NCBI RefSeq assembly: GCF_016654015.1
Contig: NZ_JAEPWM010000007.1
Span: 1-64,000, forward strand
Length of the DNA: 64,000 nt
DNA from: Ramlibacter ginsenosidimutans
Lineage (GTDB): Bacteria; Pseudomonadota; Gammaproteobacteria; Burkholderiales; Burkholderiaceae_C
Direction: 5' to 3'
A model generated the notes under the pieces. That model was given only the letters and a program-made list of their open reading frames with translations. It searched no databases and was not told where the DNA came from. Both the position numbers and the translations under genes were made by a program. Every line of letters starts with the position of its first letter. Position 1 is the first letter of the stretch. Below are positions 49,225 to 61,409 of this stretch, piece after piece.

Positions 49225-49430
49225 CCGCGTTATTGATGCGCGTGCGTCGCATGCGCGCCTCGGGCCTGTAGTCTCGCTGGACGTTTTCTTGTCGGCGCGG
49301 TCCTACAACCCGCGCCAGCACTGGCTTTCCGCGCGATTGAGTTTCCTGTCGCGTTGAAAGCTTGTTGGGAACTCAGTACCCTCCAAGGCGCTGTTGGCGT
49401 GCCAACAGATGCTTACCTATGGGGGATCAC

Positions 49431-56048
<6,618 letters not shown>

Positions 56049-56109: not shown

Positions 56110-58179
56110 GTGACCAGTACTGCGGCTCCGCAGGAATCGGGAGACAAGGTCAACATCCTGGTGGTGGACGACTTGCCGGAAAAGCACGTCGTGTTCCGGA
56201 CCATCCTCGACGAGCTTGGGCAGAACATCGTCAGTGCCCGGTCCGGGCAGGAGGCGCTGAAGTACATCCTCGAGATGGAGTTCGCGGTGATCCTGCTGGA
56301 CGTCAACATGCCCGACATCGACGGGCTGGAGACCGCGAGCCTGATCCGGAACTACAAGAAATCGGCGCAGACGCCGATCGTCTTCATCACCGCCTATGTC
56401 GACGAGTTGCAGGCGCGCCGCGGCTACGCGCTGGGCGCCGTCGACTACATCCCGTCGCCGGTGGTGCCGGAGGTGCTGCGCTCCAAGGTGCGGGTGTTCG
56501 TCGAGCTGTTCCGCATGAACCGCCAGCTGCAGAAGCAGGCGGCGCAACGCGAGGAACTCGCGCGATCGGAAGCGGCACGCGCCGCGGCCGAGGAGGCGAT
56601 CCAGCGCGCGGACTTCCTGGCCGAGGCGAGCCGCACGCTCTCGCGGTCGCTGAACCTGGACGACACGACTGCGGCCGTCCTGGATCTCTGCGTGCCCGTG
56701 CTCGCCGAGCGGGCGATCCTGGGCATTCCGGACAAGGAAGGCGGCGTCCGCCGCCTCGACATGCATCCGGCGCCGAGCGTGGACGACGCGGAGGCGTTCA
56801 CGCCGGAGCTTCGGGCGGCCGCGGACCAGGTGATCCGCACGCGCCAGTTCTACCTGTGGCGCCGCGACGAGCGCGCCGCGGCGATCTTCCCGCTGACGGC
56901 GGGGGACGAGATCCGGGGCGCGCTGGCGCTGCTGGGGCCGGCGGCGCAGTTCGATTCGGCGCGCATCGCGCTGATGCGGGAATTCGCCAGCCGCGCGTCC
57001 ATCGCGATGGAGAACGCACGCCTGTACTCCGCCGTGCAGGAAGCGGACCGCCGCAAGAACGAGTTCCTGGCGATGCTCGCGCACGAACTGCGCAACCCGC
57101 TCGCGCCGATCCGCAATGCCGTGCACATCCTTGCCAGCGCGCAGGAGCTGCCGCCCAAGCTCGCCTGGGCGCGCGACGTCATCGGTCGGCAGGCCGACCA
57201 CATGGCCCGGCTGATCGACGACCTGCTGGACGTGTCGCGCATCGTGCAAGGCAAGGTGGCCGTCAAGCTGGAGAAGCTGCAGCTCGCGTCGCTCATCGAG
57301 CGTTCCGTCGAGGCGAGCTCGCCGCGCCTCGGGGCCCGCGAACAGGTGCTGGACGTGGTCCTGCCCAAGCAGAGCATCGAGCTCGAGGGCGATTCGGTGC
57401 GGCTGTCCCAGGTGCTCTCCAACCTGATCAACAACGCCAGCAAGTTCTCGCCGCCGCGCAGCCGCATCCGGCTGGAAGCGAGCTACGAGGAAGGCGAACT
57501 GCGCCTGTCGGTCAAGGACGAAGGCGCGGGCATCGCGGCGGAATTCCTCCCCCACATGTTCGACCTGTTCGCCCAGGCCGACCAGTCCCTGGACCGTTCG
57601 CAAGGTGGCCTGGGCATCGGCCTGACGCTGGTGAAGCATCTCGTCGAACTCCACGGTGGCCGCGTGTGGGCCGCCAGCGAGGGGCTGGGCAAGGGCGCTG
57701 AAGTCAGCATCGCGCTGCCGGCGCAGGTGGGCGGCGAGGCCGAGCCCGCCTTGCCGGGGGTGCTGCACCAACCGGTGGACGTGCCCAGCGGCGGGTCGCG
57801 CATCCTTGTCGTCGACGACCTGCAGGCCTCCGCGGAAACGCTCAGCACGCTGCTGCAGATGGAAGGCTTCCAGGTTCGGGTGGCGCACGACGGCCAGGAG
57901 GCATTGAGCATCGCGCGGGAGTTCCAGCCGAACGTGGTCCTGCTGGACATCGGCCTGCCGGGCATGAACGGGTTCGAAGTGGCCTACGGCCTGCGCAAGC
58001 AGCCCGAGTCGCGCGACGCCTTGCTGATCGCGTTGACCGGGTACGGTGAAGCGGAGAGCCGCAGCCGCTCGGCCCAGGCCGGGTTCGACTTCCACATGGT
58101 CAAGCCGGCCGACGTGAACCTGCTGCTGTCCATGTTGGCAAATCCTCAGGAAGCGCGGAAGGCCGTCGCAAGCGCGTAA
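56110..58179 (+). CDS. Hybrid histidine kinase (REC-GAF-HisKA-HATPase-REC)
   Basis: A 689-residue soluble kinase. The N-terminal receiver (about 14-130) has the acceptor Asp in VILLDVNMPDIDG, followed by a coiled coil, a GAF-like domain (about 170-305), HisKA with FLAMLAHELRNPLAPI, the ATPase domain (DEGAGI, GGLGIGLTLVKHL) and a C-terminal receiver with VVLLDIGLPGMNG. Start is GTG 56110, 61 bases after the multi-HAMP kinase stop, so it may share its transcript and receive phosphate from it. Layout matches the kinase at 153-2123 apart from the sensor module. Its end lies 20 bases before tRNA-Ser. Confidence 0.92.
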   Translation: MTSTAAPQESGDKVNILVVDDLPEKHVVFRTILDELGQNIVSARSGQEALKYILEMEFAVILLDVNMPDIDGLETASLIRNYKKSAQTPIVFITAYVDELQARRGYALGAVDYIPSPVVPEVLRSKVRVFVELFRMNRQLQKQAAQREELARSEAARAAAEEAIQRADFLAEASRTLSRSLNLDDTTAAVLDLCVPVLAERAILGIPDKEGGVRRLDMHPAPSVDDAEAFTPELRAAADQVIRTRQFYLWRRDERAAAIFPLTAGDEIRGALALLGPAAQFDSARIALMREFASRASIAMENARLYSAVQEADRRKNEFLAMLAHELRNPLAPIRNAVHILASAQELPPKLAWARDVIGRQADHMARLIDDLLDVSRIVQGKVAVKLEKLQLASLIERSVEASSPRLGAREQVLDVVLPKQSIELEGDSVRLSQVLSNLINNASKFSPPRSRIRLEASYEEGELRLSVKDEGAGIAAEFLPHMFDLFAQADQSLDRSQGGLGIGLTLVKHLVELHGGRVWAASEGLGKGAEVSIALPAQVGGEAEPALPGVLHQPVDVPSGGSRILVVDDLQASAETLSTLLQMEGFQVRVAHDGQEALSIAREFQPNVVLLDIGLPGMNGFEVAYGLRKQPESRDALLIALTGYGEAESRSRSAQAGFDFHMVKPADVNLLLSMLANPQEARKAVASA

Positions 58180-58453: not shown

Positions 58454-59140
58454 ATGCAGGAGTTCGTCGCATACCGTCGGGTGACCGCGTCCGAGCAGGG
58501 ACGGGCCGGGCTCGACCTCGAGGCGCAGGCCGCGGCCATCCTGCGATTCGTGCAATCGCGGCACGGGGTGCTGCTGCAGGACTTCGTGGAGCATGAGGCC
58601 GGCAAGGGCAGCGACGGCATGGACCGCCGGCCGCAGTTGCGCGAAGCGATCGCGACCGCGCGCAGGCGCGCTGCGGTCCTGGTCGTCTCCCGGCTGGACC
58701 GCCTCTCGCGCAACGCGGCGCTCATCGCCGACCTGATCGCCTCGGGCGTGGCTTTCGTCGCGGCCGACACGCCGGAGGCGGACGCGGCGATGCTGCACGC
58801 TTATGCAGCGGTCGCGCAGCGGGAACGCGAGCACGCGGCCGGCAGGATCTCCGCCGCGCTGCAGGCAAAGAAGAGGGCGGCCCTCGCCCGCGGCTTGCCC
58901 AATCCGCTCGGCAACTCCCGCACCCTCCAGCCGGGCAACAGCGGCCGCAGCGAATCAGCGCAGGCCTTCGCGGCGCGCCTGGCGCCCATCCTCGAGGCGT
59001 ACCGTGCCGCGGGCCTCACCCAGCGGCGGATGGTGGAAGCCCTGAATCACGACGGCATTCCCACCGCGGCCGGCGGGACGTGGTCGCTCCTGCAAGTCCA
59101 GCGCGTGCTCGCGCGCCTGGCCGGCCCACACCAACGCTGA
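58454..59140 (+). CDS. Serine recombinase-family protein with Thr at the catalytic position
   Basis: A 228-residue resolvase/invertase-type recombinase. The N-terminal catalytic domain is recognisable from YRRVTASEQGRAGLDLEAQ, EAGKGSDGMDRRPQL, VVSRLDRLSRN and AQREREHAAGRISAAL. At the position where the family has the nucleophile in Y-x-R-V-S-T, this protein has T11 (S13 is two residues on). A C-terminal helical domain (about 170-228, LTQRRMVEALNHDGIPT) probably binds DNA. It lies 163 bases from tRNA-Ser, suggesting a small integrated element, but no direct repeat of the tRNA end was seen. It may be inactive, or act as a DNA-binding regulator. Confidence 0.85.
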   Translation: MQEFVAYRRVTASEQGRAGLDLEAQAAAILRFVQSRHGVLLQDFVEHEAGKGSDGMDRRPQLREAIATARRRAAVLVVSRLDRLSRNAALIADLIASGVAFVAADTPEADAAMLHAYAAVAQREREHAAGRISAALQAKKRAALARGLPNPLGNSRTLQPGNSGRSESAQAFAARLAPILEAYRAAGLTQRRMVEALNHDGIPTAAGGTWSLLQVQRVLARLAGPHQR

Positions 59141-59466
59141 GTCGCCGCGGGACGCGACGCCATCGGCCGCTCGACAGTGTGTCGGGGCAGCCACACGACG
59201 ACAGCCTGACTAAGACTGTCTAATCAACATCAGACAGTCAATTAGACACATAGACATCGACGCATAGACAGTCGCTGCGCCGCGCGTAGACTGCTTAGGA
59301 CTGTCTCCATCATTCTTTTGTCTGTCCAGACCCTGTAAAATCAACGGCGTAGACGTGTCTAGGGGTTTTCCTGTGTGACATTGTCTAGGCAGACTACGCA
59401 ACTTTACTTGACGGTCTAATTGCTCAGTTATACAGTCGGCCTGAACAGTCCACAGATGAGGCGCTC
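59141..59466. other. AT-richer intergenic region packed with AGAC/GTCT half-sites
   Basis: This 326-base region is much lower in GC than its surroundings. Between 59213 and 59417, AGAC occurs nine times (59213, 59232, 59244, 59252, 59266, 59288, 59328, 59351, 59391) and GTCT six times (59218, 59303, 59320, 59357, 59383, 59414); chance would give one or two. The extended motif AGACAGTC occurs at 59232 and 59266, and as its complement GACTGTCT at 59214 and 59299. TAGAC-GT-GTCTA (59350-59361) is a full dyad. No ORF of note. Likely an operator array for the HTH protein downstream. Confidence 0.75.
59408..59436 (+). promoter_or_regulatory. Promoter of the HTH-pseudocyclase gene
   Basis: TTGACG (59408-59413), a 17-base spacer and TACAGT (59431-59436) form a good -35 with a weak -10; TATACA at 59429-59434 with a 15-base spacer is an alternative. 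GTCTAA lies in the spacer, so the last half-site of the array sits on the promoter. The TTG start codon is 30 bases downstream with GAGG before it. Confidence 0.65.
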
Positions 59467-60978
59467 TTGCTCACCAGCAAAGAGATTCTGGAGAGAACAG
59501 GCATCTCGCGTGCCACTCTCAACAACTACATTGCCAGCGGTTTGGTGCCGCGGCCCCAGGTGTTGCCGCCGGGGCCGGAGCATGGCGCAGCGCCTCGCAT
59601 CGGTTACTTCCCGGACGACACGGTGGCGCGCGTCCAGGAGATCCAGCGGCTGAAAGGCCAGGGCTGGAGCATCGCGCGGATCTCGGAGCACCTGGCTGCT
59701 CATCCCCCCGGCCAGGCGCCCGGTGCGCAGCCCGCGGGTGCGGCGCCTGCGCCCGTGACCGCCGTGGCCACGGCCGTCGTCGCGGCGACGCGGCCCGAGA
59801 ACGGTCGCGACGCGACGCTTTCCCTGACGGTGCGTGCAGGCCAGGTCGGTCACGCGGCCTACCTGCTGAACGACGCATTCCGCATCACCTGGGCGAACGA
59901 GCAGACCCGCTCGGACGCCTTGTCGCCGCTGGCCAGCCGCGCCGGCGTGCAGGGCACCAGCATCTTCAGCCAGTTGCTCTCGGTGGACCCCGCCAAGGGG
60001 GGCGACGCGATCCTGCGCTTTCACCTCCAGGTTGCGCAGGCGCGCGGCGCCACCACCGGGGCCTTGTTCCGCGACCTGCCGCCGGACGAGGCCGCCCGCC
60101 TGCAGCGGATGTTCGACGAGCCACGGCGCGGCGAATCGGGCCTCCTGATGCAAGCCGGCATCCCCGCCGGTGCCGGGCTGCCGGCGCGCATCGTGTATGC
60201 CGTGCAGTTCCGCGAGGGCGTCCTGATCGCCTATGCGAAGCAGGACGAACTCGGCTCCGTGGCGGTGCCGGTGCCGGCGCAACGTCCCGCGGCGGCGCCG
60301 GCCGTGACCCCCGTGGCCGTGCTGGTGAGCACGCTGCAGGACGCCAGCGGCCTCTGGGTGCGGCTGACCGCACAGGAATATTTCGAACTGCTCAACGAGA
60401 TCTGGGCCGAACTCGATCGCGTCTTCCGTCGCCATGGCGGGCGCGCCGGGCCCCAGGGCGGCGAGGTGCTCGTCTGCTACTTCGTGCCGCAGCAGGACAG
60501 CAGCCATCTCTGGAACGCGCTGGCCGCCGCGCAGCAGACGCGCGAACTGATGCGCGAGATCTCGCAGCGCTGGCAGGCGCGCAAGGGCTGGGACGTCGAG
60601 CTCGCGATGAACATCGGCATCGACGAAGGACAAGAGTGGATGGGCGTCGTGGGAGCGACGGGGGAGGGGGCTCTCCGCGTGGTCGGCGATACGGCCGACC
60701 ACGCGGAGCAGCTTTCCCGCGTGAGCCGCATGGGCGCCATCCTGGTGACCCGCAGCCTGCTGGGCAAGTTGCCGAACGAGCAACGCCAGCGCCTGCGCTT
60801 CGGCGTCCCGCGCCTGGACGGCACGCGCGCCGAGCCACCGCTTCTCTCCACGTTTGCACGACTCGCCGACATCGCCGCCCCCGAGGCCGTGCCGGCCCGG
60901 GTGGCGGGCCTTGCAGCCGCCGAACTCTTCGACTTGCTTCCCCCCAACAACAGCAACCCTCGCCCCCAAGAAGGCTGA
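59467..60978 (+). CDS. MerR-type HTH protein fused to a degenerate class III cyclase domain
   Basis: A 503-residue fusion. Residues 1-75 form a MerR-like helix-turn-helix (SKEILERTGISRATLNNYIASGLVP...YFPDDTVARVQEIQRLKGQGWSIARISEHL). A Pro/Ala linker and a PAS-like part (about 120-270) follow. The C-terminal part (about 280-460) aligns with class III cyclases (VAVLVSTLQDASGLWVRLT, YFELLNEIWAELDRVFRRHGG, VVGDTADHAEQLSRVSRMGAILVT). The first metal Asp is replaced in VLVSTLQ and the second is Glu in GGEVLVCYF, so catalysis is unlikely. Start is TTG 59467, the only one that fits. It may sense a nucleotide and control its own promoter through the half-site array. Rare architecture. Confidence 0.8.
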   Translation: MLTSKEILERTGISRATLNNYIASGLVPRPQVLPPGPEHGAAPRIGYFPDDTVARVQEIQRLKGQGWSIARISEHLAAHPPGQAPGAQPAGAAPAPVTAVATAVVAATRPENGRDATLSLTVRAGQVGHAAYLLNDAFRITWANEQTRSDALSPLASRAGVQGTSIFSQLLSVDPAKGGDAILRFHLQVAQARGATTGALFRDLPPDEAARLQRMFDEPRRGESGLLMQAGIPAGAGLPARIVYAVQFREGVLIAYAKQDELGSVAVPVPAQRPAAAPAVTPVAVLVSTLQDASGLWVRLTAQEYFELLNEIWAELDRVFRRHGGRAGPQGGEVLVCYFVPQQDSSHLWNALAAAQQTRELMREISQRWQARKGWDVELAMNIGIDEGQEWMGVVGATGEGALRVVGDTADHAEQLSRVSRMGAILVTRSLLGKLPNEQRQRLRFGVPRLDGTRAEPPLLSTFARLADIAAPEAVPARVAGLAAAELFDLLPPNNSNPRPQEG

Positions 60979-60995: not shown

Positions 60996-61409
60996 ATGCG
61001 CTGGTTCAAGACCAAAGACCTGAGGAGCAGCATTTACGCCCTGTTCAGCGTCAGCGCGAGCTCGTCGCGGATCGACGACGCAGCCACCATGGACCACATC
61101 CGCGAAGCGATGCTGGAGATGACCGGCGACGACCCCCGCGAGCGCACCGCGGGCCTCGCGCGGCGGATCCGCTATGCGACCGACCTGCAGGCCCTGTGGT
61201 TCATGCGCGGCGAGCTGATGCAGCTGCTGGCGCGCAACGAGGGCGAACTGGCGGCCCGGGAGAAGGTGGACGAACTCACGTCCCTCTTCACCGACCTGCT
61301 GCCCAGGGGGCTGCGTTCGCGCCCGAGCCCGCTGGATACTTCCTACCGCAACTCGCGCCCGCCCTCCGACGACTACCGCGCGTCCCGCCCCCACTCGGAC
61401 GACACCTGA
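60996..61409 (+). CDS. Small hypothetical protein in operon with the HTH-pseudocyclase
   Basis: A 137-residue protein: helical N-terminal two-thirds (AATMDHIREAMLEMTGD, GLARRIRYATDLQALWFMRGELMQLLARNEGE, LTSLFTDLLP) and a Ser/Arg/Asp-rich disordered tail with repeated SRP(P/H)SDD. GGAAAGGAT precedes ATG 60996; only 17 bases separate it from the fusion gene, so they are one operon. The tail overlaps the convergent qmcA gene by 37 bases. No known domain; possible partner of the pseudocyclase. Confidence 0.75.
   Translation: MRWFKTKDLRSSIYALFSVSASSSRIDDAATMDHIREAMLEMTGDDPRERTAGLARRIRYATDLQALWFMRGELMQLLARNEGELAAREKVDELTSLFTDLLPRGLRSRPSPLDTSYRNSRPPSDDYRASRPHSDDT

Follow-up and report, generated by a model that had tools for sequence, protein, structure and literature searches.

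Several MerR-type winged helix-turn-helix (HTH) proteins are known to assemble on repeated half-sites at promoters. CarH and CarA (LitR) are light- and B12-responsive MerR-type repressors whose operators place several boxes with the repeat consensus TnnACA over the -35 and -10 elements, where a multimer binds cooperatively, and the design of these operators varies between species (PMC9304148). BldC, whose HTH is MerR-like, multimerises on repeated half-sites whose number varies (PMC5859096). Fusions of a class III cyclase with an HTH are known as well: the mycobacterial cyclase/LuxR proteins (Mclx; Rv0386, Rv1358 and Rv2488c) include members that lack catalytic residues and have been proposed as regulators (PMC4452763). 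Neither degenerate cyclase-HTH fusions nor the operator logic of CarH and BldC is thus new in itself.

The locus described here lies in a 64-kb stretch of DNA (the window) and pairs a MerR-type HTH, a PAS fold and a class III cyclase fold in one protein with an array of boxes in front of its own gene. Like CarH/CarA it has a MerR-type winged HTH, and the box core TRGACA is an instance of TnnACA (PMC9304148). It differs in carrying PAS and cyclase folds where CarH/CarA has a cobalamin domain, in having 4-17 boxes in both orientations at a phase of about 10.9 bp where CarH/CarA has three or four regular tandem 11-bp repeats, and in that CarH/CarA controls carotenoid genes whereas we found no other target here. 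BldC shares the MerR-like winged HTH and the variable repeat number (PMC5859096), but it is a pleiotropic protein of 68 residues with no sensor domain, repeats of the AATTnnnnC type and many targets. In Mclx the order of domains is reversed, with an N-terminal cyclase, an AAA/NB-ARC middle and a C-terminal LuxR HTH, in contrast to the N-terminal MerR HTH of the window protein, and no self-directed operator array appears in the text consulted (PMC4452763). CyaC and CyaB have the same cyclase fold at about 17% identity and are catalysts, whereas the window protein keeps none of the five catalytic residues. We found no description of a MerR-PAS-cyclase family with a self-directed array in the open literature, outside which most subscription papers lie. 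Class III cyclases with DNA-binding heads have been little studied, and in this case the DNA target can be read from the genome.

Domains of the HTH-pseudocyclase protein

Most orthologues share the TTG start of the gene (Table 1), others begin with GTG or ATG, and the GAGG right ahead of the start is kept in many. Pfam MerR_1 matches residues 3-77 at 26.5 bits against a curated cut-off of 21.6 and is found in all 33 aligned members, Guanylate_cyc matches residues 280-436, also above its curated cut-off, and no LuxR or AAA match was found in the protein by profile search. An AlphaFold2 model of the whole protein, built on the family alignment, has a confident HTH, a disordered linker, an alpha/beta middle domain and a cyclase fold that Foldseek matches to CyaC/CyaB (E about 1e-12). 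The original prediction, which joined a MerR-like HTH to a class III cyclase fold that has degenerated, is supported, but it had missed the domain between them. Modelled alone with 25 relatives, this middle region gives a pLDDT of 88 and a pTM of 0.85, and its 50 best PDB matches in Foldseek are nearly all PAS domains or PAS-bearing proteins, at modest E values (best 0.0046); at the sequence level, no solved PAS gave a significant match. After the HTH, a helix at residues 69-78 runs into a linker predicted to be disordered at 83-121, where classical MerR proteins have an antiparallel coiled-coil dimerisation helix. Because no long confident helix is predicted there, we regard the protein as MerR-like, in the manner of CarH and BldC, and not as a classical MerR.

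At the five catalytic positions of class III cyclases (D, K, D, N, R) the window protein has T289, P329, E333, D411 and Q415. The loss of the metal-binding aspartates had been predicted and is evident at T289 and E333; the K, N and R positions are lost too (P329, D411 and Q415). The ratio dN/dS is 0.08-0.09 in the HTH (0.09 to the nearest orthologue) and 0.18-0.21 in the cyclase fold, and because of the latter values we regard the dead cyclase domain as maintained, not decaying. In Ramlibacter montanisoli (L005, L050) the pseudocyclase and partner genes are both frameshifted relative to their relatives, reflecting either decay or sequencing error. We also considered a mobile or phage origin and rejected it, as a relative had no plasmid match and the window protein had no phage match.

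Table 1. Features of the locus, with positions counted from the first base of the window.
Feature	Position	Strand	Remarks
Distal box cluster	59209-59273		Six TRGACAG-type 12-mers: 59209+, 59214-, 59228+, 59233-, 59240+, 59262+ (matrix score at least 8 bits)
Middle part	59320-59361		Strong box 59320-; dyad TAGACGTGTCTA at 59350-59361
Proximal box cluster over promoter	59379-59450		Boxes 59379-, 59383+, 59410-, 59426+, 59439+
Promoter-like TTGACG-17-TACAGT	59408-59436	+	
GAGG, ribosome-binding-like	59458-59461	+	5 bases ahead of TTG start
MerR-PAS-pseudocyclase gene	59467-60978	+	503 aa; TTG start
MerR-type winged HTH	59467-59700	+	Residues 1-78; Pfam MerR_1, AlphaFold2
Pro/Ala-rich linker	59701-59841	+	Residues 79-125; predicted disordered (pLDDT < 50 at 83-121)
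PAS-fold domain	59842-60252	+	Residues 126-262; missing from some members
Class III cyclase fold	60298-60936	+	Residues 278-490; Pfam Guanylate_cyc, Foldseek
Partner gene	60996-61409	+	137 aa; conserved, directly downstream of the pseudocyclase gene

A phased array of boxes over the promoter

The array lies within the intergenic stretch 59141-59466, upstream of the gene. Fifteen AGAC/GTCT tetramers start here at 59213-59414 and span exactly 205 bp, whereas the rest of the window never holds more than 4 per 205 bp (mean 0.68). AGACAGTC occurs exactly four times in 64 kb, always within 59214-59306 and twice on each strand, where whole-window shuffles average 1.3 occurrences anywhere in 64 kb, and the local GC content is 0.49 versus 0.69 for the window. 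The description first given of this region, with fifteen tetramers in about 205 bp, four copies of AGACAGTC in both orientations, and a full dyad and a TTGACG-17-TACAGT promoter in an AT-richer patch, thus holds in each of its parts, and the case for it is stronger than first given. Its motif holds only in part: the AGAC/GTCT repeats are real, but comparison of 33 orthologous upstream regions identifies AGAC as merely the core of the true box, (T)T-R-G-A-C-A-G-W, or TRGACAGW.

A contig scan for orthologues yielded 14 loci, nearly all named Ramlibacter, and among 60 genomes from the same genus as the window, 41 carry the gene. With a position-weight matrix built from 33 non-redundant Ramlibacter upstream regions and a score cut of at least 8 bits, 303 boxes were found in 9,900 bp of upstream sequence versus 17 in the remaining 160,217 bp of the same loci, a 288-fold enrichment; at a looser cut, 344 sites were seen versus 19 expected from shuffles. 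A matrix scan of the window places 12 of its 17 TRGACAG-type sites in the array, and other 300-bp stretches hold at most one. The motif was expected to recur upstream of orthologues, and every Ramlibacter orthologue region examined does have the array, the 300 bp upstream of each Ramlibacter-type orthologue being full of boxes while the upstream neighbours vary by locus and individual box positions turn over. The clade L017/L018/L020 has weak or absent boxes and a diverged HTH region, which counts in favour of the HTH as the reader of the boxes. At L003 and L008 a tRNA-Ser-like sequence separates the kinase gene from the boxes, and the upstream boundary of the array locus therefore varies.

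Same-strand spacings between boxes peak at 12-13, 19-22, 30-34 and 42-44 bp and fit a period of 10.9 bp best (R 0.41). None of 1000 jittered controls fitted as well, and a diversity-thinned subset gives 10.8 bp; because same-strand spacings share this period, the boxes face one side of the helix. Opposite-strand boxes are as common as the same-strand repeats, which are themselves abundant. Box density peaks at -80 to -40, over the promoter, and a second, more variable cluster lies upstream. TTGAC is found upstream in 30 of 33 orthologues, mostly at about -54 to -62, with a spacer that is usually 16-18 bp and most often 17 bp; the promoter lies at about -59 and has boxes inside it. In the window, the boxes that start at 59410 and 59426 share bases with the spacer between -35 and -10 and with the -10 hexamer. 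A two-cluster layout, of the kind a loop would use, is no more than suggested by a gap of at least 50 bp with at least two boxes on each side, which 23 of the 33 loci have, few of them individually significant.

A probable private operator and what it may do

A box-pair pattern searched in 59 genomes of the genus gave, by our tally, 62 matches, and 41 of these lie directly upstream of the HTH-pseudocyclase gene, if we include one on a contig whose start falls within the gene. The remaining 21, mostly GC-rich and coding-like, do not reach the 47 obtained with a reversed control pattern. These genome-wide counts rest on pattern searches; such searches found no second array in the window's own genome, in direct or inverted arrangement, and a regulon search found no array excess elsewhere among the 59 genomes. 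The array is essentially private to the HTH-pseudocyclase gene in the genus, an extreme self-only architecture of one regulator, one array and one operon. As relatives keep the boxes at this gene only, the protein very probably switches its own gene and the small neighbour gene. A regulator with its own operon as sole target is unusual, which is a point against an autoregulator.

We think it probable, going by the sequence, that the protein is a one-component autorepressor that binds cooperatively to many boxes at its own promoter and derives from a self-regulating cyclase. Each winged HTH would read one TRGACAG box, while the flexible linker would tie it to a body formed by the PAS and cyclase folds that presumably dimerises; with such a linker and body, subunits could settle cooperatively on boxes on the same face in either orientation. 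Protein on the boxes would mask the start region as well as the -35/-10 spacer and so shut the promoter, and the upstream cluster would add cooperativity, possibly by looping. A signal would loosen binding, likeliest via the PAS domain or via the small partner encoded in the same operon. In this scheme we infer the protein-DNA binding, the dimerisation, the signal and the looping, and we prefer repression to activation purely from where the boxes sit. An autoregulator with many cooperative sites had been proposed at the outset, and the conserved array, the helically phased spacing and the privacy of the array to this gene all support it.

It is also conceivable that a separate regulator binds them and controls the gene, given that we infer the link between HTH and box from sequence. 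Such a regulator would normally have further targets, whereas across 59 genomes the arrays lie at this gene only, and where the gene is missing there is no box excess; moreover, the box fits the MerR/CarH half-site (PMC9304148), and gene and boxes stay linked through different neighbourhoods and families. We consider this reading very unlikely. Slightly less so, though still improbable, is that the boxes recruit the protein to activate its own promoter as a classical MerR would. MerR proteins can also activate, the HTH is of MerR type, and boxes lie in the classical MerR position between -35 and -10. Activated MerR promoters, however, have a dyad and stretched spacers of 19-20 bp, whereas the spacer here is mostly 17 bp, near optimal, and many half-sites in both directions extend over the start region and far upstream. 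The premise behind the original prediction, that MerR HTHs bind dyads, does not fit this operator for the same reason; a field of half-sites in both orientations is nearer to CarH and BldC.

A further model changes only the sensor of the autorepressor, with the degenerate cyclase fold binding a nucleotide that controls DNA binding. Nucleotide binding is known for some degenerate cyclase folds, and the fold here is predicted to be intact and is under purifying selection. But the window clade has replaced every metal, base-selecting and ribose/transition-state residue, and a PAS fold is the more usual sensor, so the nucleotide sensing proposed initially is not supported and we consider it unlikely, if the least so of these alternatives. 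One might finally read the array as a res- or att-like recombination site, because a short serine recombinase gene (58454-59140; 228 aa, with a resolvase N-domain and a weak HTH_62 match) lies between the kinase gene and the array and ends immediately before it. Resolvase sites also hold repeated TGTCY half-sites, which TGTCYA resembles. This recombinase has no match in any other locus examined, whereas all Ramlibacter loci have the array, and the box spacing and promoter overlap go with the HTH gene. Its absence from all other loci leads us to reject this reading, to which we give next to no weight.

Loss of catalysis and the downstream partner

All five catalytic residues are kept in 12 relatives. 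Two Ramlibacter-type homologues (L065, L066) and homologues in other Burkholderiales families keep them, and so, as read directly from the sequence, do three homologues (L143-L145) from a family outside Burkholderiales. A tree built without the five catalytic columns places the losses inside the Ramlibacter group; each position takes at least 2-4 changes, and none of the five residues survives in the window clade. Boxes lie upstream of L065, L066, L113-L115, L121, L123 and L124 and are dense (8-10) at L143-L145. Relatives with an intact cyclase vary from 2 to 10 boxes, so not every member of the family has a dense array, which is a point against the autorepressor scheme. Most homologues with all five residues carry the same boxes, so the pairing of HTH and box predates the loss of catalysis, and array and pseudocyclase are not bound to each other. 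We dropped the idea that array density tracks loss of catalysis when 8-10 boxes were found at catalytically intact relatives of another family.

The best reading of this distribution, as far as sequence can suggest it, is a regulator derived from a self-regulating cyclase. The lineage would start from a DNA-binding cyclase that regulated its own gene, and in Ramlibacter the cyclase would have become a scaffold. Both ends of the transition are found in close relatives under the same operator code, with five of five residues in two Ramlibacter-type genomes and none in the window clade. The family thus allows a test of whether an enzyme becomes a regulator by losing catalysis or had been one before. 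We speculate, more tentatively and without wishing to bet on it, that these DNA-binding class III cyclases, a family in Pseudomonadota, may be "trigger enzymes" that join cyclic nucleotide synthesis to a private multi-box operator on their own promoter, with occupancy coupled to catalysis, and that in Ramlibacter they were reduced stepwise to a pure regulator, the operator being kept and the partner gained. If this were true, it would be a traceable conversion of an enzyme into a transcription factor within one genus.

The original prediction also missed the conserved partner gene downstream. The partner has no Pfam or NCBIfam family match, measures 114-142 aa and comes immediately after the gene wherever a Ramlibacter locus has enough flanking sequence; the homologues examined in other families lack it. 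Relatives of the partner are more widespread in the family, and in four examined loci (L134, L135, L136 and L138) they lie near a cyclase-FHA gene; it is possible that partner and cyclase-FHA gene form a functional pair. These four loci have no box cluster, so the partner goes with cyclases and not with boxes. We likewise rejected the idea that the boxes follow the partner gene instead of the HTH gene, because partner paralogues elsewhere lack box clusters. In the four loci, which belong to other genera, the nearby class III cyclase, where whole, appears to have an FHA-like C-terminus. One genome has a second copy of the partner some 34 kb farther downstream (L133:4719-5060; G000:C24:94700-95059), and neither boxes nor a nearby cyclase were found there.

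Upstream of the recombinase, a very large hybrid histidine kinase (49362-56048; an ORF of 2228 aa) carries a tandem series of about a dozen repeats that resemble HAMP modules and are nearly identical to one another. It is followed by a second response-regulator/kinase gene (56110-58179), and several Ramlibacter loci have a homologue of this second gene ahead of the array gene.
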